The notes under the pieces are model-generated. The model worked only from the letters and a program-made list of their open reading frames with translations, was not told the DNA's origin and did not search any database. The position numbers were made by a program, and so were the translations under genes. A stretch of 64,000 nucleotides of DNA from Armatimonadota bacterium (GTDB lineage Bacteria > Armatimonadota > Chthonomonadetes > Chthonomonadales > CAJBBX01), in assembly GCA_026392115.1 (NCBI GenBank), contig JAPLCQ010000087.1, forward strand, positions 1-64,000, given 5' to 3'. Position 1 is the stretch's first letter, and every line of letters starts with the position of its first letter. Shown here one piece after another: positions 26,441 to 63,335 of this stretch.

Positions 26441-29400
26441 CTACGGCACGACGTTGAAGGCGCTGGTGGCGGCGGTCGCCGAGTACCAGGCGTCGCCGGA
26501 GAACTCGGCGGCGCCGGTGTGGGCGCCGGTGGGCTCGCCCGCCGGGATGGACCAGGTCGCCGCGGCCCAACCGTCTGCGGCCGCGGCAGCCGTTCCGATC
26601 GTCGTGCCGTTCACCTTGAATGTGATGCTCTTGCCGGGCTGGATCACGTAGTCCGGCAGGCTTCGCACGTAGGCCCGCAACGGGTGGTCGGCGCCGCGCT
26701 TCCCGGAGCGGATGTAGAGCCAGAGGTAGAGGTTGCCCTTGGTCGCCGTGAGCTTCCCGGTGTTGCTGGAGGCCAGGTAGCCCAGATCGCCCGCGAACGC
26801 GCCGCTGATGGTCCGCACGCCGGAGCCGCCGCCCTCAGGCACGGTATAGCCGAACTGCACGTAGCACGAGGCGTTGGTGTTGGCCGTGCCGATGGAAGCG
26901 CCGTCGACCTTCACCGTGATCGGCTTGTTCGGGATGACGGCGTTGGCCAGCGTGTAGAGGTAGACCTTGAGCACCGTGTACTGCCGGATCTTCTGGGTTC
27001 GATCGACGACATACACCTTTGTCGCCAGCGTCTGGGCGGTGAGGGCGCCGGAACCCGCGCTGCCGGTGTAGAGGTCGTCGCCCGCAAACGAGGCCGACAG
27101 CGCGCGCGACGCGGCGCCCGGCGTGATCACCCAGGCAAGCGAGGCGTGGCCCGCGGCGTCGGTGTTCGCGGACCCGACGGAGGCGCCGGCCACCGAGAAG
27201 GCGACCGCGCGGCCCGAGATCGTCGCATTGTCGGTCGTGCGCCGCAGGTAGGCGCGGAGGTAGGTCGTCTCGCCGATGACGCCGCTCCGGTCCGGCGCGT
27301 AGAGGCTGGTCGCGGCACGAACCTGCAGGGCGCCGGAGCCGCTCGAGCCGTTGTGCGAGGCGTCGCCGCCGAAGAGCGCCCCGAGCGCCCGGGAGCCGGG
27401 TCCCGAGCCGGCGGGCACGGTGTAGGCCATGGATGCGGCGCCGCCGGCCGCGGTGGTTGCGGAGCCGACGGTCGTGCCGTCCACCGAGAAGGTGAGCGGG
27501 CGCCCGACCAGAGGCGAGGCGTCGGTCGCGCGTTTGAGTGTGGCGGCCAGGGCGGTCGAGGCGCCGATCACCCCGGATGCCGCGGGGACGGAGACCGTCG
27601 TGTCGGCCTTCAGGACGCTCAGCGTCGCGGTCGCGCCCGCCGGTCGGTTGAGCGCGTCGCCCCCGAAGTCGGCGGCCAGCGGCTTCGCGCCCGGCGTCAG
27701 GCTCGACGGTACGGTGGTGGGCGCCGAGGCGACACCGGAGGCGTTGGTGTTCCACGAGCCGATGGCGGAGCCGTTGAGGAGGAAGGTGACCGCCTTGCCC
27801 GCCAGCGGCGCGGCGTCGGCGGCCCGCTTGAGCGTGGCCGTCAGCGTGACCGCGCCGCCGAGTTGTCCGGAGCGGTCCGGCATGGTCAGCGTCGAGTCCG
27901 ATGCCGTCTGCGTCAGCGTGCCGGAGCCCGAGGCCGCGGCGAAGTCATAGTCGGCGACCGACGAGGCGCCGAGAGTCCTGGCGGCCTGCTCGCCGGTGAT
28001 GACCGTGGAGAGCGTGGCCACTCCGGCGACGCTGGTCTGGGCCGAGCCCACGGCCGTGCCGGCCAGCGTGAACGCCACCGGCTTGCCGGCGATCGGCTGG
28101 TCCACGTCGGTGCGCGTCAGCGTGGCCTGCAGGTTGACGCTTGAGCCGCCGGGCCCCGAGGCGTTGGGCACGGCCAGCGCCGTGGGCACGAGGTCCCCGG
28201 TTCGCTCCAGCCGCATGGAGTAGGGGCCGGTATTGGCGCCGTCGAAGCCGTCGGAGACAATCACGGTGAAGCGCCCCGCGTTGGCCAGGGTCTGCGACCA
28301 GACGGTCGTGGCGGACGACGAGGCCGGGTCAAACCAGGTGGCCGGCGGCAGGAAGACGCGCACCCAGGGCCAGAGGCTACCGCTGGTCCGCGCGGCGGTG
28401 ATCGTGGCGAGGTTGCCGATGGAGCCGTTGAAGGTGTAGGTGTCGACCTGGCCGATGTTCGCGATGGCCGGTCCGGGCGTGACCTGCACGCCGGGCGCCA
28501 GCGGAGCGGCGTTCTGCGGGTCGTTCATCCGCTGGAGCGTGAAGCCGAGCTGCCCGCCGCGGAGGCCGTTGAAGCCGTCATGCACCAGCAGCACGTGCCT
28601 GCCCGACGAGGGCAGCGTGGCGATGCCCTGCGCCATGACGCTGCCGGTCTGCAGGAAGAGCTGGTCGCCGTTCGGCCCGTAGAGCTGCATCCCCGGCCAG
28701 AGGTCGCCGGCCCCGCTCCAGGGGTGGACGCACCGCGCATAGACGACATCGTTGGCGGAGCCCTGGAACACATAGGTGGAGACCAGGTTCGCGTTGCCGG
28801 CGCCGGCGGGCGTGATCGTCGTGTTCGTGTAACGGCCAACGCCGAGGTCCGTCGCGCCGCCGGGGTTGTTGATCCGCTGCGCGTAGAAGGCGAAGTCGCC
28901 CTCAAAGGCCTCTCCGGCGAAGTAATCGCAGACGAGGTAGGTGTAGGTCCCTGCCGCCGCCACGGTCTTCCGGAGCTCGGCGGTGGGGTTGCCGTCCGCC
29001 TTGAGCAGCATCGTGCCGTCCGGGGCGCAGAGCCAGATGCGCGGGTAGAAGCCCGAGGTGGTGAGGCTGGCCAGGCGTGCGAAGAGCGTATCGCCGGCCG
29101 TCGCCTGCACGGTGTAGGTGGAGATCAGGTTGGGAGCGCCGGTCGTGACGTTGACGCGTCCGTTGGCCGTGGCGCCGTAGGCGATGGCCGCCGCGTTGCC
29201 GGGGTTGTTCAGCCGCTGGGCGTAGACCAGGTATCCGCCGGTGCGCGAGTTGTTGAAGCCGTCGTACACCTGCACGGTGTAGACGCCCGGCATGTCGATG
29301 TTGATCGCCTTGTCTATGGTCTGCGAGCTGTACATGCTGACGATCATCGCGCCGTTGGGGTCGAAGACGCGCAGGCCGGGCCAGATGCCGCTGCCGTGGG

Positions 29401-29617
29401 GCAATGCCACCCGGAGGAAGACCACGTCGTTGAGGGCGCCCGTGAAGGTGTAGACGCCCGGCGCGGCCGCCGCCGCGATCACGCCGCGGTAGGTGGCGCC
29501 GAACGCCATGGCGGTCTGCGCGCCGACGACCGACGGCCATGCGCCGGCCAGGGCGAGCATCGCGGACAAGACCGCCGCGCGTCGCAAGCCCGTCGCAAGT
29601 GAGCCTAGAATAGCCAT
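26441..29617 (-). CDS. Giant secreted protein with PPC-like and bacterial Ig-like repeats
   Basis: A 1058-residue protein. The ATG at 29617 (GGGGA upstream) opens a signal peptide ending near PSVVGAQ. Residues about 30-475 hold four repeats of the kind STYTVQATAGDTLFARLAS, resembling the pre-peptidase C-terminal (PPC) beta-sandwich. Residues about 480-1058 hold six Ig-like repeats (Big_3-type) with the pattern PLAGKAVTFLLNGSAIGSWN, then ASGVASAPTTVP, then AADFGGDALN. No anchor is visible at the C-terminus (ends AFNVVP). It is probably an extracellular adhesin or matrix protein. TATAAT on the minus strand at 29673-29678 is a likely -10 box. Confidence 0.85.
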   Translation of the reverse strand: MAILGSLATGLRRAAVLSAMLALAGAWPSVVGAQTAMAFGATYRGVIAAAAAPGVYTFTGALNDVVFLRVALPHGSGIWPGLRVFDPNGAMIVSMYSSQTIDKAINIDMPGVYTVQVYDGFNNSRTGGYLVYAQRLNNPGNAAAIAYGATANGRVNVTTGAPNLISTYTVQATAGDTLFARLASLTTSGFYPRIWLCAPDGTMLLKADGNPTAELRKTVAAAGTYTYLVCDYFAGEAFEGDFAFYAQRINNPGGATDLGVGRYTNTTITPAGAGNANLVSTYVFQGSANDVVYARCVHPWSGAGDLWPGMQLYGPNGDQLFLQTGSVMAQGIATLPSSGRHVLLVHDGFNGLRGGQLGFTLQRMNDPQNAAPLAPGVQVTPGPAIANIGQVDTYTFNGSIGNLATITAARTSGSLWPWVRVFLPPATWFDPASSSATTVWSQTLANAGRFTVIVSDGFDGANTGPYSMRLERTGDLVPTALAVPNASGPGGSSVNLQATLTRTDVDQPIAGKPVAFTLAGTAVGSAQTSVAGVATLSTVITGEQAARTLGASSVADYDFAAASGSGTLTQTASDSTLTMPDRSGQLGGAVTLTATLKRAADAAPLAGKAVTFLLNGSAIGSWNTNASGVASAPTTVPSSLTPGAKPLAADFGGDALNRPAGATATLSVLKADTTVSVPAASGVIGASTALAATLKRATDASPLVGRPLTFSVDGTTVGSATTAAGGAASMAYTVPAGSGPGSRALGALFGGDASHNGSSGSGALQVRAATSLYAPDRSGVIGETTYLRAYLRRTTDNATISGRAVAFSVAGASVGSANTDAAGHASLAWVITPGAASRALSASFAGDDLYTGSAGSGALTAQTLATKVYVVDRTQKIRQYTVLKVYLYTLANAVIPNKPITVKVDGASIGTANTNASCYVQFGYTVPEGGGSGVRTISGAFAGDLGYLASSNTGKLTATKGNLYLWLYIRSGKRGADHPLRAYVRSLPDYVIQPGKSITFKVNGTTIGTAAAAADGWAAATWSIPAGEPTGAHTGAAEFSGDAWYSATAATSAFNVVP

Positions 29618-29672
29618 ACCCGATCCCCTATCCGCCTGCCGACCGTCCACCGGCGGCGACAACGCAGGCGCC

Positions 29673-29678
29673 ATTATA
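29673..29678 (-). promoter_or_regulatory. -10 box of the Ig-repeat gene
   Basis: ATTATA on the plus strand reads TATAAT on the minus strand, 56 bases ahead of the start at 29617. No good -35 match lies 17 bases further up (CACGGA). Confidence 0.5.
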
Positions 29679-29847
29679 TCGCGCGGCGCGCTGGATCCGT
29701 GCCCCGCGGCATCGACTTCTCGCCGCCGCGGACCGAGCCTTCGCGCCTGCGCGGTACTATGAATACCCCAGTACGCTGCCCAGTCCCAAGGGTTCCCGCG
29801 GCGCGGCTGAGCGGCAGCACAGGAGCCGACGGAGAGGGTTAACGCGA

Positions 29848-31122
29848 GTGACGATGGCGCAGCGCGCCGAGGCTGGTGCCAGGCGCTGGTTTGTTGTGGG
29901 ACGCGTGCTGGGTATCGTCGCGTGCCTGCTTTCCATGGCCGGCGGCACGATGTTCGGGATTCTCTTCTGGGGCAGCAGCTCCATTCGCGGCGCTTTCGTC
30001 CGGATTGTGGGCGAAGGCTTCAGGCATCCCAGCCTCAATCCCCTGGCCATCTGGCAGCCGTACCGGCAGTTCCCCGGCGTCAACAGCATCAACATCCTTG
30101 TGCTGGGCGTCGACTACGACTACAACAACAAGAACCAGGTCCTCAAGACCCACGGGCGCAGCGATACGATCCTCCTGGCCCACATCGACTTCGCCAAGCG
30201 CCGCATCACGGCGATGACGCTTCCGCGCGATACGGCCATGGAGATCCCCGGGCGGCGGGGCATCTACAAGGCCAACGCGGCGCACCAGTTCGGCGGGCCC
30301 GACCTGACCGCACAGATGCTCCGCGACTCGTTCGGAGTGGAGACCGACTACTGGGCGACCCTCAACTTCAAGGGCTTCGAGCAACTGATCGACGCCATCG
30401 GCGGCGTCGACATCACGGTCAAGAAGCGCATGAAGTACGACGACAACTGGGGCCACCTGCACATCGACCTCTACCCCGGCTTCCAGCACATGACGGGCTA
30501 CCAGGCCATGGGCTTCGTGCGGATGCGCCACAACGACAGCGATCTGATGCGGGCCGAGAGGCAGCACGAGTTCATCGAGGCCGTCCGCAACCGGCTCAAG
30601 CAGCCCACCGTCTTCTTCGACCTCGCGGAAGCCGTGGAGAAGCTGGCCGGGAACGTCAAGCGCTCGCCCAATCTGAGCGAGGACCGGCTCTTCGCCATCG
30701 CCAACTTCGCCCGCGGGCTGCCCAAAGAGAATGTCATTATCAAGACGGTGCCGACCCGGCCCGCCAGTCGGGCCTTCCTCGCGGCCGACCCGGATGCGAC
30801 GGAGGAGCTTGTGAACGAGCTCTTCTTCGACGGCAACCCCGCGGCGGCGACGATCAGCGTGCCCTCCTTCAGCCGCGCCGCGGCATCGGGCGGCGGCCGG
30901 GCGCGCCGATCCAAGCGCGGGTCCGACCAGGGCGACACGGGGTCGGATGCGCTCGACGCCCCGGCGGACGACACCCAGGTCGGCGATCCGGCGCCCGACC
31001 CCGGCTCTGATCCGTCTCCGTCTCCGACCCCGGCTGATCCGGGGACCTCGCCGCCGCCCGCGGCTCCGACCGACCCGCCGCCGTCGGCCAACCCGCCTCC
31101 GCCCGCATCGGGAACGAGCTGA
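29848..31122 (+). CDS. LytR-CpsA-Psr (LCP) family cell-wall polymer ligase
   Basis: A 424-residue protein that probably attaches glycopolymers to peptidoglycan from lipid-linked precursors. A membrane helix (about residues 14-40) is followed by the LCP domain: INILVLGVDYDYN, GRSDTILLAHIDF, TLPRDTAMEIPGR, ANAAHQFGGPD and GFVRMRHNDSDLMRAERQHE, with the conserved Asp and Arg residues. After residue 310 comes a basic, then Pro/Asp/Ser-rich tail ending SANPPPPASGTS, unusual in length. I chose the GTG at 29848 because GGAGAGGG lies 9 bases upstream; an ATG two codons later is the alternative. The cupin gene follows by 36 bases. Confidence 0.88.
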   Translation: MTMAQRAEAGARRWFVVGRVLGIVACLLSMAGGTMFGILFWGSSSIRGAFVRIVGEGFRHPSLNPLAIWQPYRQFPGVNSINILVLGVDYDYNNKNQVLKTHGRSDTILLAHIDFAKRRITAMTLPRDTAMEIPGRRGIYKANAAHQFGGPDLTAQMLRDSFGVETDYWATLNFKGFEQLIDAIGGVDITVKKRMKYDDNWGHLHIDLYPGFQHMTGYQAMGFVRMRHNDSDLMRAERQHEFIEAVRNRLKQPTVFFDLAEAVEKLAGNVKRSPNLSEDRLFAIANFARGLPKENVIIKTVPTRPASRAFLAADPDATEELVNELFFDGNPAAATISVPSFSRAAASGGGRARRSKRGSDQGDTGSDALDAPADDTQVGDPAPDPGSDPSPSPTPADPGTSPPPAAPTDPPPSANPPPPASGTS

Positions 31123-31158
31123 TCACGGCACCGGTATAGCAACCCGAGGAGCACAGGC

Positions 31159-31515
31159 ATGAAGATTCTGCAATCCGAGACCGTTCCGTACCGCGAAGTC
31201 GCGCAGGATGGCGCCGCCGAGTGCCGGATGCGCGAACTGATCACAGCCGCCGACGGCGCGCCGACGTTCGCCATGCGCCAGTTCGAGCTGGGTATCGGCG
31301 GCAACACGCCGTTCCACAGTCACGCGTGGGAGCACGAAGTGTTCATCATCTGCGGCGAGGGGCATATCCTCACGTCCGGCGGCGACGAGCGGCCCCTGCA
31401 CGCCGGCGACGCCGTGCTGGTGGCGCCGGGCGAGGAGCACTCCTTCCGCAACGACGGCGAGTTTCCCATGCGCTTCCTCTGCATGATCCCGGTCGAGCAG
31501 GTCTGCTGCCGGTAG
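31159..31515 (+). CDS. Single-domain cupin protein
   Basis: A 118-residue conserved beta-barrel. Cupin motif 1 is HSHAWEHEVFIICGEG with two His and a Glu as metal ligands; motif 2 is DAVLVAPGEEHSFRND with the third His. A metal-binding site is therefore complete. Small cupins of this kind range from dioxygenases and isomerases to sugar-binding proteins; the substrate cannot be told. It follows the LCP gene on the same strand and precedes the promoter of glnA. Confidence 0.88.
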   Translation: MKILQSETVPYREVAQDGAAECRMRELITAADGAPTFAMRQFELGIGGNTPFHSHAWEHEVFIICGEGHILTSGGDERPLHAGDAVLVAPGEEHSFRNDGEFPMRFLCMIPVEQVCCR

Positions 31516-31546
31516 GATACGCGCCCAAGGACGGCCGCCGTCGCGT

Positions 31547-31575
31547 TTGACAGCGGCCGCCGGCACTGGTATAAT
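31547..31575 (+). promoter_or_regulatory. Consensus sigma-70 promoter of the glnA leader
   Basis: TTGACA (31547-31552), a 17-base spacer and TATAAT (31570-31575) match the housekeeping consensus at all twelve positions. The start of transcription is expected near 31582, giving a leader of about 220 bases before glnA. Confidence 0.85.
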
Positions 31576-31581
31576 GATCGC

Positions 31582-31717
31582 CGAGCGGCCATCGGGCCTC
31601 TCCGGAGGCTCTTCGAGCCTCGGCAATACGCAATGGCTGTGGGCACATCGTGGTGACCCGGCAAGCACAGACGCTCCAGGCGTATCCGCACATGCGGAGA
31701 CCGCCGGGGCGTTTTTT
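31582..31717 (+). ncRNA. Structured leader RNA or small RNA ending in a terminator, upstream of glnA
   Basis: From the start inferred from a perfect promoter, about 136 bases fold into several stems: GCCGAG (31580-31585) with CTCGGC (31619-31624), GGCC/GGCC (31587-31590 and 31595-31598), AGGCTC/GAGCCT (31606-31611 and 31615-31620) and CTGTG (31637-31641) with CACAG (31666-31670). It ends in a strong intrinsic terminator with six T. It may be an attenuated or riboswitch-controlled leader of glnA, or a separate small RNA such as a nitrogen-regulation RNA. I do not recognise a known glutamine, 2-oxoglutarate or other riboswitch core, nor 6S or SRP RNA. Confidence 0.55.
31671..31717 (+). terminator. 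Intrinsic terminator inside the glnA leader
   Basis: ACGCTCC (31671-31677) pairs with GGGGCGT (31706-31712, one G-T pair). Inside are GGCG/CGCC (31679-31682 and 31702-31705) and TCCGC/GCGGA (31685-31689 and 31694-31698) closing loop ACAT. TTTTTT at 31712-31717 follows at once. Confidence 0.8.
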
Positions 31718-31801
31718 GTTGTGAGCGCGCCGCGCGGGCGCCCTGAACCCCGCGTGCGGCGCGTGCGACACCGCCTCAACCCATAAGGAGCAAACAACAC
31801 G

Positions 31802-33217
<1,416 letters not shown>

Positions 33218-33242
33218 GCGAACACCGCCCAGACCGATCCGC

Positions 33243-33273
33243 AAGGCCCGCCCCCGCAACGGTGGCGGGCCTT
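33243..33273 (+). terminator. Hairpin after glnA
   Basis: AAGGCCCGCC (33243-33252) pairs with GGCGGGCCTT (33264-33273), 25 bases past the glnA stop. The T content after it is low, so some read-through into the Uma2 gene is possible. Confidence 0.6.
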
Positions 33274-33310
33274 GCCTGCAAGAGGTCTTCGCGCCGCCCC
33301 GCACCGGCTG

Positions 33311-33316
33311 TATAAT
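33311..33316 (+). promoter_or_regulatory. -10 box of Uma2 copy 2
   Basis: TATAAT lies 28 bases ahead of the ATG at 33344, with AGGAGG between. The -35 position reads TTCGCG, a weak match. Confidence 0.5.
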
Positions 33317-33343
33317 GCAGCGGGGCCAGGAGGCTCCCCGACC

Positions 33344-33940
33344 ATGACCACTATCATCGACGCAACGAGCGGCATCACCTTCGAGGAGTTCTTGCGCCTG
33401 GAGGGGCACTACGAGTACATCAATGGAAATGCGGTCGAAATGTCCCCGATTTCAGACGAACACAACCGTGTCACGCTCTTCCTACTGCGCATCTTGGGTG
33501 ACTACACAGAATCGCGAGGTTGTGGTGAAGTGCGCCACGACCCCTACGTGATGAGGCGGGTTGCGGCGGAGCCGGGACGCGCTCCCGACGTTATGTTCGT
33601 CGGTTCCGAGCATCTGGACCGCATCAAGCCCACCCACCTGGAGGGGCCCGCCGACCTGGTGGTGGAGGTTGTGAGCCCCGAGAGCCGTGTCCGCGACCGG
33701 GGCGACAAGTTCTACGAGTACGAGCAGGCCGGTGTGCGGGAGTACTGGATCATCGACTCGGACCGCAAGCGCGCCGAGTTCTACCGGTTGGGCGGCGACG
33801 GCGCCTACGAGCCGGCCCAGCCGACCGCGGACGGCCGCTATGAGAGCGCCGTGATCGCGGGGCTCTGGATCCGCGTCGGATGGCTCTGGGACCGCCCGCC
33901 CGTCCTGTCGGTCTTGCGCGAATGGGGGATCATCGCCTGA
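33344..33940 (+). CDS. Uma2-family protein, copy 2, between glnA and P-II genes
   Basis: A 198-residue Uma2 (DUF820) protein. The core residues are Asp82 in RAPDVMFVG, Glu108 in DLVVEVVSPES and Lys122 in RGDKFYEYEQAGVREYWIID; the N-terminal YEYINGNAVEMSPIS supplies the first acidic residue. The start is set by AGGAGG and the loss of homology upstream. Its TGA is followed directly by the ATG of the P-II gene, so both are probably transcribed together. There is no known link between Uma2 and nitrogen control; this gene may have been inserted into the glnA-glnB pair. Confidence 0.88.
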   Translation: MTTIIDATSGITFEEFLRLEGHYEYINGNAVEMSPISDEHNRVTLFLLRILGDYTESRGCGEVRHDPYVMRRVAAEPGRAPDVMFVGSEHLDRIKPTHLEGPADLVVEVVSPESRVRDRGDKFYEYEQAGVREYWIIDSDRKRAEFYRLGGDGAYEPAQPTADGRYESAVIAGLWIRVGWLWDRPPVLSVLREWGIIA

Positions 33941-34279
33941 ATGAAGCAGATTGAGTGCATCATCCGGCCCTACAAGCTCGACGAGGTGAAGATCGCCCTC
34001 AGCGAGATCGGCGTGACGGGGATGACCATCAGCGACGTGCGGGGCTTCGGTCGCCAGCGGGGTCACACGGAGCGGTTCCGCGGGGCCGAGTACGCCATCG
34101 AGATGCCGCCGAAGGTCAAGATCGAGATGATGGTTCGCGACGAGGACGCCGAGGGGATCATCGAGACGCTGGTGCGCCACGCGCGGACCGGCGAGCCGGG
34201 CGACGGCAAGATTTTCGTCCTGCCCCTGGAGGAGGCCGTCCGAATCCGGACCGAGGAGAGCGGCGACGAGGTCCTGTAG
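33941..34279 (+). CDS. glnB: Nitrogen regulatory protein P-II
   Basis: A 112-residue trimeric sensor of 2-oxoglutarate, ATP/ADP and nitrogen state. MKQIECIIRPYKLDEVKIAL, the T-loop GHTERFRGAEYAIEMPPKV with Tyr51 at the uridylylation position, and ARTGEPGDGKIFVLPLEEA (the second P-II signature) are all present. Position 46, often Tyr, is Phe. It directly abuts the Uma2 stop. With no amtB gene beside it, GlnB or GlnK cannot be told apart with certainty; closeness to glnA suggests control of glutamine synthetase. Confidence 0.95.
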   Translation: MKQIECIIRPYKLDEVKIALSEIGVTGMTISDVRGFGRQRGHTERFRGAEYAIEMPPKVKIEMMVRDEDAEGIIETLVRHARTGEPGDGKIFVLPLEEAVRIRTEESGDEVL

Positions 34280-34308
34280 CCCCGCCGCCGCCGGGAACGA
34301 CCCTTGGC

Positions 34309-34821
34309 CTACCGGACGGGCCGCCAGTCGCCGTTGTCGTCCGTGTACTCCACCAGCGTCACGGGGTTGATGACCCCCTTGCCGGCGGCCTGGCCCGTCA
34401 CGCGCAGTTTGGGCATCATGTCGTTCAGCTTCTTCTGGGCCTTGGCGGCCCCGGTGAACATGATGAAGCGCTGCACGCCCCGCCGGCTCCAGGCGAGGCC
34501 GGGCTTGCGGGCGAGCGCCGCCGGGACCGTGGCGTGACAGGAGGCGCGGGCGGTGGCATCGGCCTCCTTGGCGGTGAGCACCTTGTCGGTCGAGTCGGTC
34601 AGATCAAGGCGGAAACCCGCGCCGGACTTCACGCCGAGAACGACGTAGCCCTCCACCGAGGTGAGCGTCTTGGCCGGCAGCTTGGTCCGGACATACTCGT
34701 CCACGGTCACGTACTGATGTTGCGGCTTGGGCCCTCGAGCGGCCCCGGACTGGGCGAGAGCGGGCGTCAGCAGGCCGGCCAGCGCCAGGGCGGCCAGTCC
34801 TACCTTGATGGGCGAAGACAT
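34309..34821 (-). CDS. Small secreted protein, OB-fold-like
   Basis: A 170-residue protein with a signal peptide (MSSPIKVGLAALALAGLL, cleavage near PALAQ). The mature part has alternating hydrophobic strands (SVEGYVVLGVKSGAGFRLDL, then KLRVTGQAAGKGVINPVTLV), suggesting a small OB-like beta-barrel; I do not recognise a family. AAGGAG lies about 9 bases ahead of the ATG at 34821; a GTG directly before it is an alternative start. It is convergent with the P-II gene and divergent from the glycosidase gene. Confidence 0.7.
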   Translation of the reverse strand: MSSPIKVGLAALALAGLLTPALAQSGAARGPKPQHQYVTVDEYVRTKLPAKTLTSVEGYVVLGVKSGAGFRLDLTDSTDKVLTAKEADATARASCHATVPAALARKPGLAWSRRGVQRFIMFTGAAKAQKKLNDMMPKLRVTGQAAGKGVINPVTLVEYTDDNGDWRPVR

Positions 34822-34910
34822 CACGATGAGCTCCTTCGGTCGATGGGCGGCCTGCCCGCCGACCCCGAGTTGGTACGGATACGATACCGCGAAGGCCCGC
34901 GCCGCGTATG

Positions 34911-34916
34911 CCATAA
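34911..34916 (+). promoter_or_regulatory. -10 box of the glycosidase-dapF unit
   Basis: CATAAT lies 28 bases ahead of the ATG at 34945, in the divergent region with the gene at 34821. No clear -35. Confidence 0.35.
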
Positions 34917-34944
34917 TGGGCCTCTCTCCCGCACTTCGGAGCCT

Positions 34945-37203
34945 ATGATCACCTCGCCCATTCGCCGGTTGCGCCTCGGTCCGCGCCGGGCGTCGGTCGC
35001 GCTGTCGGCGCTGCCGGCTCTGGCCGCCCTTTCCACGGCTTCCGCCCAGACTCCCGCCTTGCGCACCAATCCGGCGCTGGGGCCCTTTCCGCTGGCCTCC
35101 GCGGTCGACTTCCGGTACCTGCTCGACGCTCCCGCCGGTAGACACGGTTTCGTGGCCTCCGGCAAGCCGGGCAAGGGCTTCATCTTCGGCGACGGCCGAC
35201 GCGCCCGGTTCTGGGGCGTCAACATCAGCGGCAAGAGCGTCTTCGTGCCGGAGGCCACCATCACGCGGGTGGCCGACGTGCTGGCACGTGCGGGCTGCAA
35301 CATGGTGCGGCTTGAGGCCATCGACTCCGTGGGCGGCCTCCTGGACGCGCCCAACGTCACCACGTCGCGGCGGCTGGACGAAGGCCGGCTCGCGCTGATC
35401 GACGCCTGGACCCACGAACTGCGGCGGCGGGGCATCTACTACTACTTCGACCTGCTCGACTTCCGGCAGTTCCGCGCCGACGATGGGGTGGCCTCCGTCG
35501 CGGAGGTGGGCCGGGCCGCGCGGCCCTACGCCTGCTTCGATCGGAGGCTGATCGCGCTGCAAAAGGAGTATGCCACGCAGCTCCTGACGCACCGGAACCC
35601 GCGCACAGGCTTGCGGTACGTCGATGACCCGGCGCTGGCGCTGGTGGAGGTCTGCAACGAGCATGGCCTGCTGATACGCCCCCAGGCGCTGGGCGCCCTG
35701 GCCGATCCCTACGCCGAGGCGCTGCAACGCCGATGGAACGGGTGGCTGCTGGCCCGTTACGGGAGCCGGGCCCGTATGCGATCGGCATGGGCCGCCGACG
35801 GCTCCGCCGCCTTGGCCGCCGGCGAGGACCCGGCCCTGGGCTCCGTCCGCCTGCCCGACCTGTCCGGCCCAGGCAGGGCGCGCGTGGCCGACGGCGTTCG
35901 GTTCTGCACCGCGACGCAGGCCGCCTACTTCGCCGAGATGCGCGGCCACCTGCGCTCCATCGGCCTGCGCGTGCCCGTGACGGCCACGGTCTCATCGGAC
36001 AGCGTGGCCGACGTCGAATCGACCAGTGCCATGGACTTCACGGCGGGCAACATCTACGCGGACCACCCGGTCTTCGCCGGACGCGACTGGCAGGGCGCGT
36101 TCCTGTTCAATGACGCGAACCCGCTCCGCGGCGCGTCTGCGTGGCACGCAGGGGCGGCGTTGGCCTCCCTGCGGTGGCGCGGCAAGCCTCTTGTGGTGCG
36201 CGAGTGGGCGACCGTCTGGCCGAATCGCTATCGATGCACCGCCGTTCCGGAGATGGCCGCCTACGCCGCGCTGCACGACGTGGACGCCGTGCTGCTCTTC
36301 GGGTACCAGATCGCGACCAAGCCGGAGGAGCTCTCCGACTTCGACCACCAGGCCGATCCCGCCGTCTGGGGTCTCTTCGGCCATGGCGCGGCGGCCTTCC
36401 TTCGGCCCGGTGCGCAGGCGCCCGGCAGCGTGCGCGTCATCCACTCGGCCGAGCGCTTGGCCGCCTGGCCCTGCACCGTCAGCGACGTGCATCGTGCGGG
36501 GTGGTTCGGTGGGGTCGACAACCGGGTCGGTACGGCCGCGGCCGTCGCCCCGACTCGCGCGACACGGGCCGAGGCGGGCATGCGCGGCGCCGTGAAGGCG
36601 CTGATCCCCGGCTACGCTCCGGACCGGCTCGCGACAGCCGCCGAGGGCGTCTACATCGCGCTTGGCGGCGGGGTTGTGCGGAACGCGTCGGCGGGCCGGA
36701 TGCGAACAGAGACGCCCGTGTCGGCATCGCTCGCGGGAGAGATGACCGCCGGCGCGGGCCACGAGTTTGGACCGTGGCGGCTCAAGACCGGCAGCCCGGT
36801 CGCGGCTCTGATGGCCACCAGCCTGGACGGCAAGCCCTTCGCGATGTCGCGCCACTATACCGTGAAGATGGTGACCCAGGCCGTCAACACCGGGCAACGC
36901 ATGGAGCCCGCCGCGGCAGGCGCCCCGGCACGGTACCGCATCGCCGACTGGGGGAGGCCGCCCGTGGTCACGCAGGGCCGCGCCTCGGAGACGGCCACCA
37001 TCCTCACGCTTCACGGGCGGGCCCTGCTGAGCCTGGGTATGGTGGACGGCACATGGGAACTGGTCGTGCGCGACGGTCGGGCCGGCCTCCTCTGCGACAC
37101 CGGCGGCATCAGCGGCACGCTCTTCGGAACCCCGATCACCACCGTGGCCGACCAGTTCGTGACGGCGCCCGCAACGCCCCAGCCCCGAAAGGCGAGCCCA
37201 TGA
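34945..37203 (+). CDS. Secreted TIM-barrel glycoside hydrolase (GH5/GH42-like clan A)
   Basis: A 752-residue protein with an N-terminal basic segment and signal peptide (about residues 1-33, ending STASAQ). The barrel starts about residue 60 (FWGVNISGKSVFVPE). The acid/base Glu is probably that of LVEVCNEHGLL near residue 239 and the nucleophile that of LVVREWATVWPN near residue 420, the clan GH-A pattern. The last 200 residues form beta-rich domains. The polysaccharide substrate is unknown. The TGA overlaps the dapF start (ATGA), an odd pairing of a secreted glycosidase with a cytoplasmic amino-acid enzyme. Confidence 0.78.
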   Translation: MITSPIRRLRLGPRRASVALSALPALAALSTASAQTPALRTNPALGPFPLASAVDFRYLLDAPAGRHGFVASGKPGKGFIFGDGRRARFWGVNISGKSVFVPEATITRVADVLARAGCNMVRLEAIDSVGGLLDAPNVTTSRRLDEGRLALIDAWTHELRRRGIYYYFDLLDFRQFRADDGVASVAEVGRAARPYACFDRRLIALQKEYATQLLTHRNPRTGLRYVDDPALALVEVCNEHGLLIRPQALGALADPYAEALQRRWNGWLLARYGSRARMRSAWAADGSAALAAGEDPALGSVRLPDLSGPGRARVADGVRFCTATQAAYFAEMRGHLRSIGLRVPVTATVSSDSVADVESTSAMDFTAGNIYADHPVFAGRDWQGAFLFNDANPLRGASAWHAGAALASLRWRGKPLVVREWATVWPNRYRCTAVPEMAAYAALHDVDAVLLFGYQIATKPEELSDFDHQADPAVWGLFGHGAAAFLRPGAQAPGSVRVIHSAERLAAWPCTVSDVHRAGWFGGVDNRVGTAAAVAPTRATRAEAGMRGAVKALIPGYAPDRLATAAEGVYIALGGGVVRNASAGRMRTETPVSASLAGEMTAGAGHEFGPWRLKTGSPVAALMATSLDGKPFAMSRHYTVKMVTQAVNTGQRMEPAAAGAPARYRIADWGRPPVVTQGRASETATILTLHGRALLSLGMVDGTWELVVRDGRAGLLCDTGGISGTLFGTPITTVADQFVTAPATPQPRKASP

Positions 37204-63110: not shown

Positions 63111-63230
63111 TATGTGCGGGCCCGGCGTATGGCGCGGACCCGGGGTATGGTGCGGACCCGGGGTATGGGCGGACCCGGCGTATGTGCGGACCCGGCGTAT
63201 GGTGCGGACCCGGGGTATGTGCGGACCCGG
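63111..63230. repeat. Tandem repeat of a 17-18-base unit, seven copies
   Basis: Seven units of the form GTATGGTGCGGACCCGGG alternate between 17 and 18 bases (GTATGTGCGGACCCGGC and relatives). The unit length is not a multiple of three, so it is not a protein repeat, and it lies between two DUF1080 genes. Confidence 0.85.
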
Positions 63231-63335
63231 GGCGTTGCCCCGGGCTACCATGGGTCGCGCCTTTGGCGCTTGGCCCAGAGAATCCAGCCCCGAAGGGGCG
63301 GTCCACGCTTGCCCGGGGCAGGGCCCCGGGCAAGC
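63226..63335. repeat. Cluster of palindromes (REP-like)
   Basis: Four hairpins lie close together: CCCGGGGC/GCCCCGGG (63226-63233 and 63237-63244), GCGCC/GGCGC (63257-63261 and 63265-63269), GCCCC/GGGGC (63287-63291 and 63295-63299) and GCTTGCCCGGGGC/GCCCCGGGCAAGC (63307-63319 and 63323-63335). From 63336 to 63496 I see nothing recognisable. Confidence 0.75.

Follow-up and report, generated by a model that had tools for sequence, protein, structure and literature searches.

The RNA encoded at 31576-31717 of the 64,000-nt stretch of Armatimonadota DNA analyzed here (the window) is very probably a transcription-attenuation leader of glnA, with its terminator under the control of an ANTAR-domain response regulator. 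There is good support for attenuation as the mode of glnA control; we infer the protein binding, the read-through, the signal, and which of the three ANTAR proteins of this genome acts. Transcription would start constitutively at a strong sigma-70 promoter, and by default the terminator would form, yielding a short RNA of ~135 nt. Upon a nitrogen-related signal, probably nitrogen status, a REC-ANTAR protein would be phosphorylated and dimerize, and the dimer would bind the hexaloop hairpin P1 and stabilize a second hairpin, P2. As P2 occupies part of the 5' arm of the terminator, polymerase would then read through into glnA.

Several features of the locus (Table 1) had been described by a first-pass annotation made from the letters alone. 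The perfect promoter that it proposed was borne out at all 12 consensus positions. This was the sole promoter-like site in a scan of positions 28000 to 36000, where the shuffled sequence yields 0.6 sites at a looser 9-of-12 cutoff. Likewise, the strong six-T intrinsic terminator it placed 84 bases before glnA folds at the predicted distance from the ATG at 31802 (gap, 31718-31801), and its structured leader with several stems could be resolved, between promoter and terminator, into the hairpins H1, H2, and P1. The predicted RNA starts at ~31582, with H1, H2, P1, and the terminator following in this order. The stems of H1 and H2 are both retained in two congeners (G001 and G002), with an altered loop in H1 (UUCG and CUCG) and despite sequence changes in H2. 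The glnA gene was the single match, and thus the sole copy found, in the window's genome (G000). The two congeners also retain a GC-rich stretch resembling a hairpin at 31727-31762, downstream of the terminator and before glnA. The sole Rfam match in the window was an Acido-Lenti-1 RNA (RF01687) at 63226-63270, just above the gathering score.

Table 1. Features of the glnA leader region and its nitrogen-related surroundings
Feature	Coordinates	Strand	Details and basis
Sigma-70 promoter, TTGACA-17-TATAAT	31547-31575	+	-35 TTGACA at 31547-31552; -10 TATAAT at 31570-31575; 17-nt spacer; extended -10 TG upstream; 12/12 consensus
Hairpin H1, GAGcGGCC-AUCG-GGCCuCUC	31583-31602	+	Tetraloop; fold, genus level only
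Hairpin H2, GAGGCUC-UUC-GAGCCUC	31605-31621	+	Fold, genus level only
P1, ANTAR-type hexaloop hairpin, GGGCAC-AUCGUG-GUG(A)CCC	31641-31659	+	Loop at 31647-31652; conservation, shuffling, R1/G4 rule
Candidate P2, AGC-ACAGAC-GCU	31664-31675	+	Hexaloop at 31667-31672 with A1 and G4; fold, -1.8 kcal/mol
Intrinsic terminator, GACGCUCCaGGCG...CGCCGGGGCGUUUUUU	31670-31717	+	Fold, -29.3 kcal/mol; six T at 3' end
glnA ribosome-binding site, AAGGAG	31785-31790	+	Sequence
glnA, glutamine synthetase, 471 aa	31802-33217	+	Pfam Gln-synt_N and Gln-synt_C
P-II protein gene (glnB type), nitrogen context	33941-34279	+	Pfam P-II

The terminator is the most stable element of the leader, and it was absent from the list returned by a simple terminator scan. 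The fold of the full leader was better than that of all 200 dinucleotide shuffles (z = -3.8), whereas the leader minus the full terminator folded no better than its shuffles (z = -0.6). Folding energy therefore backs the terminator, and the case for P1 is made by conservation; as the energy outside the full terminator is at chance level, no claim for P1 was based on energy alone.

Published ANTAR targets consist of two hairpins of at least 3 bp, each with a hexaloop carrying A at position 1 and G at position 4 (A1/G4), the second of which overlaps a terminator; the top pairs of the first hairpin and the distance between the two hairpins also matter (PMC3369931). P1 has six core pairs with one bulged A, and its loop shows A1, G4, and a C-G closing pair. 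The top pairs, C-G over A-U, together with A1/G4 are the EutV determinants described in PMC3369931. The candidate P2 is weak, with three contiguous pairs only, and has the A1/G4 loop. Its 3' arm (31673-31675) lies inside the 5' arm of the terminator (31670-31682), so that the two structures are mutually exclusive. The linker between P1 and P2 is 4 nt long (31660-31663), just under the 5 to 12 nt of the Enterococcus faecalis eut leaders, for which a linker of 3 nt was inactive (PMC3369931).

Within the genus, two congeners share 92% and 87% identity with the whole leader. Farther out, a member of another genus (G007) has an identical stretch of 28 nt (31639-31666), P1 included, before its glnA, where the flanks diverge. 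An exact-core search allowing up to 3 mismatches in 291 genomes found matches confined to the genus and G007. Sequence alone being too narrow a criterion, glnA upstream regions gathered across the family, order, and phylum were compared by structure and loop rules. The named relatives belong to the Chthonomonadales of the Armatimonadota, the phylum that the first-pass annotation had supposed. This comparison, which the first-pass annotation had called for, showed the P1 hexaloop and the terminator to be conserved: a promoter, a hexaloop with a purine at position 1 and G at position 4 (R1/G4), and a terminator recur before glnA across the Chthonomonadales. The order promoter, hexaloop hairpin, short linker, terminator, glnA is shared by family f1, G012 (f2), and G022 and G025 (f3). 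Most Chthonomonadales, as well as families f6 and f24, have a promoter of the form TTGAC[AT]-n17/18-TAT(A/AG)nT at the corresponding position. In a 12-sequence set from f1, f2, and f3, the hexaloop hairpin, linker, and terminator nearly always follow a sigma-70-type promoter; none was recognized in G003. The outer helix of the terminator is kept, with base changes, in the alignment of that set. Leader sequence beyond P1 and the terminator is not conserved.

The loop of P1 varies between genera at positions 2, 3, 5, and 6, while purine 1, G4, and the C-G closing pair are kept (AUCGUG, AUUGAC, GUUGAG, GCUGAU, ACCGAA, AAGGAU, AUCGUU, GCAGAU, AGUGUC, GAAGUU, and GAUGUU). Roughly half of the relatives have G in place of A at position 1. 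Clear counterparts of P2 are present in the window's genus, G004, G012, and family f6. Indeed, the f6 leaders (G033, G047, and G060), as read from sequence, carry two hexaloop hairpins, AGGC-GAGGUA-GCCU (with close variants) and GAGG-GACGCU-CCUC, the second of which overlaps the terminator GGGACGCUCC...GGGGCGUCCC. No canonical P2 was evident in the glnA leader sequences of G003, G005, G006, G008, G009, and G011. An extra R1/G4 hexaloop (P0) occurs close to the transcript's 5' terminus, at a long distance from the pre-terminator hairpin, in G004, G006, G007, G008, G013, G016, and G019. The P2 gap in several relatives could reflect a relaxed architecture, or P2 could simply have gone unrecognized. 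We consider it a tentative and rather unlikely proposal that the order as a whole uses a relaxed form of ANTAR control, with one strong pre-terminator hexaloop and a second hairpin that is degenerate or has moved 5' (P0); antitermination of this kind would need no canonical P2 embedded in the terminator.

Some relatives differ in what precedes glnA. The members of genus g18 (G023, G026, G027, and G029) have ANTAR proteins and no such leader at glnA; this counts against the ANTAR reading, as do the weak P2 with its short linker to P1, the lack of an evident canonical P2 in six relatives, and the frequent G at loop position 1. In one genome (G017:C82, locus L184), ~400 nt of additional sequence separates the leader from glnA; it contains long inverted stretches and may be what is left of a mobile element. 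Upstream of glnA in G031 (L167), which lacks ANTAR proteins, and in G040 (L168), which has one ANTAR protein and no hexaloop leader, GTnAC-n6-GnAAC boxes resembling GlnR operators were observed, and this suggests control at the DNA level in the families of these two genomes.

Because P1 was first picked by eye, it was tested against controls. In the 55 nt preceding the terminator, the observed hexaloop score was reached in at most 17 of 1,000 dinucleotide shuffles for 11 of 12 leaders, the twelfth (G025) being mis-anchored in this test. Under a single rule for every genome (a hairpin of the form C-[RNNGNN]-G with a score of at least 4), an R1/G4 hexaloop was detected in 25 of the 27 promoter-bearing glnA leaders from genomes encoding ANTAR proteins, while control loop classes were far rarer in the same leaders (R1/C4, 4; R1/T4, 3; R1/A4, 1; Y1/G4, 2), and promoter and hexaloop occurred together in none of 9 genomes lacking ANTAR proteins; as several of the 27 leaders come from near-identical relatives and the ANTAR-lacking genomes belong to other families, so that phylogeny is confounded, these counts serve as support and not as a formal P value. 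Isolated hexaloop hairpins in ANTAR-lacking G031 and G045 have no promoter and were treated as chance inverted repeats.

In the 12-sequence alignment, the structure described above pairs 91% of cells, versus 35 to 54% when it is slid along the alignment, and the 8 double-changed cells were reached by 0 of 500 shuffles. A second alignment (A2), built from the results of the model search, includes antisense matches, and the covariation analysis made no use of it. When 41 genomes were searched with the covariance model, the top 16 matches were all glnA leaders (E values of 7e-20 to 1.5e-6), including two from outside the seed (G030 and G017), the P1 loops of which (AGUGUC and AAUGAU) fit the rule. 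Weaker matches (G004:C3, G024:C103, G010:C48, G023:C114, G020, G013, G010:C115, and G006:C104) were rejected as members, since inspection showed most of them to be bare terminators or parts of coding sequence and none to stand before a nitrogen gene. The model of the whole leader thus finds glnA leaders only.

Each of the genomes examined from the family and order encodes ANTAR-domain (PF03861) protein. The window's genome encodes three, two of which have a receiver domain. ANTAR1 (L070, 2511-3116) is a REC-ANTAR protein whose gene is followed, 12 nt downstream, by a gene for a GAF-GAF-HisKA_2-HATPase kinase, a pairing that resembles that of EutV with EutW and recurs in several relatives. Its best PDB matches were Rv1626 (1S8N) and EutV (6WSH and 6WW6). 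Compared with the EutV residues reported in PMC8934654, ANTAR1 has kept M172, N173, and R175 of the loop, whereas R168 and R177 are not retained, with the numbering offset derived within the present analysis. ANTAR2 (L071, 6854-7435), also a REC-ANTAR protein, is encoded immediately upstream of amtB and glnK in G000 to G002, and a gene of this type lies near amtB in G004 to G007. No receiver domain was recognized in ANTAR3 (L072).

The amtB leader that adjoins the REC-ANTAR gene (L071, 6681-6853, reverse strand) itself bears an R1/G4 hexaloop hairpin. Most amtB leaders bear such hexaloops on differing stems, with the loops GCUGUC in G000, ACAGUC in G001 and G002, ACCGUU in G006, and AGUGAG plus AACGAA in G004. 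In G005, the loops AGUGAG and AACGGA stand before a P-II gene that there precedes amtB, and the AGUGAG loops of G004 and G005 sit on different stems. The amtB leader of G007 is GC rich and has no clear hexaloop, and no obvious terminator was found in the amtB leaders of G000 to G002 and G004 to G006. The amtB-glnK genes are a probable second ANTAR target.

Several other explanations of a structured, terminator-ended RNA at this position were considered. Glutamine riboswitches are found at glnA in other phyla, and a structured leader with a terminator before glnA would also suit a metabolite-sensing riboswitch (e.g., for glutamine) that controls the terminator. Of the two options, attenuation or a riboswitch, that the first-pass annotation had offered, the conserved hexaloop and the terminator favor attenuation. 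The leader shares with the glnA-type glutamine riboswitch and the Downstream-peptide RNA of Rfam its position before glnA or other nitrogen genes, but it matched no Rfam family at the gathering score, and nothing relevant appeared at E values up to 10. The glutamine riboswitches were included in this search, and the covariance model of the glnA motif did not recognize the leader, in agreement with the initial reading, in which no glutamine-sensing core was recognized. Furthermore, there is no conserved multistem core, as H1 and H2 do not extend beyond the genus, and what is conserved is a single hairpin in which only purine 1 and G4 are fixed loop letters. An R1/G4 hexaloop on changing stems, before a terminator, in genomes with ANTAR proteins is the signature of an ANTAR target and leaves a riboswitch unsupported and very improbable. 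The other initial suggestion, a stand-alone small RNA that has a promoter and a terminator to itself and lies before glnA by chance, must likewise be considered highly unlikely. The promoter and terminator do form a complete unit, from which a transcript of ~135 nt is expected upon termination, and the short terminated RNA may exist as a by-product. Three observations argue against a small RNA: wherever relatives carry the element, it precedes glnA; the scan recognized no second promoter for glnA; and the sequence is not conserved beyond P1 and the terminator.

An unregulated, constitutive partial terminator that simply reduces glnA expression would fit the terminator being the most stable element and the need of a single-copy glnA for some read-through. 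It would, however, explain neither the invariant letters of the hexaloop nor the joint absence of hexaloop and promoter from ANTAR-lacking genomes, and we regard it as even less likely than a riboswitch or a small RNA. The geometry of a hairpin before a terminator is common to several systems, which speaks for another RNA-binding antiterminator (of the LicT/SacY, PyrR, TRAP, or HutP type) or a protein-free attenuator. These appear the least probable of all, as the R1/G4 hexaloop with its C-G closing pair is the ANTAR determinant (PMC3369931), and ANTAR genes not only occur here but also show linkage to nitrogen genes.

Control by an ANTAR protein agrees with known systems in many respects. Like the targets of EutV (eutP of E. 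faecalis), NasR (nasF), and AmiR (amiE) (PMC3369931, PMC8934654), the glnA leader has an A1/G4 hexaloop hairpin just 5' of a terminator, C-G and then A-U top pairs, and a second hexaloop overlapping the 5' arm of the terminator, with a REC-ANTAR protein and a HisKA_2-type kinase encoded in the genome and a nitrogen gene downstream. In contrast to these systems, position 1 is A or G across the relatives, the P1 stem is often interrupted by a one-base bulge or mismatch three pairs beneath the loop, P2 is weak or noncanonical in several relatives, some of the leaders have a further 5' hexaloop, and the host is an Armatimonadota bacterium. According to the summary of Ramesh et al. (2012) in PMC3369936, ANTAR leaders at glutamine synthetase and ammonium genes occur in Actinobacteria, Bacteroidetes, Firmicutes, and Proteobacteria. 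The present leader belongs to the same class of RNA motif at the same class of target gene, and Armatimonadota is not among the phyla named in that summary. As such leaders were already reported in four phyla, this one represents a known kind in another phylum. A literature search for ANTAR and Armatimonadetes returned only Antarctic papers among the matches listed.

Overall, the leader provides a concrete candidate mechanism for the control of the central ammonium assimilation gene in a little-studied phylum and would extend ANTAR control of nitrogen genes to the Armatimonadota. In the structure of EutV with RNA, the ANTAR dimer engages only a single hexaloop at once, and G4 is flipped out, which raised the question of whether one hexaloop is sufficient (PMC8934654). 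As several relatives have no clear second hexaloop, the Chthonomonadales offer a natural test of this question.
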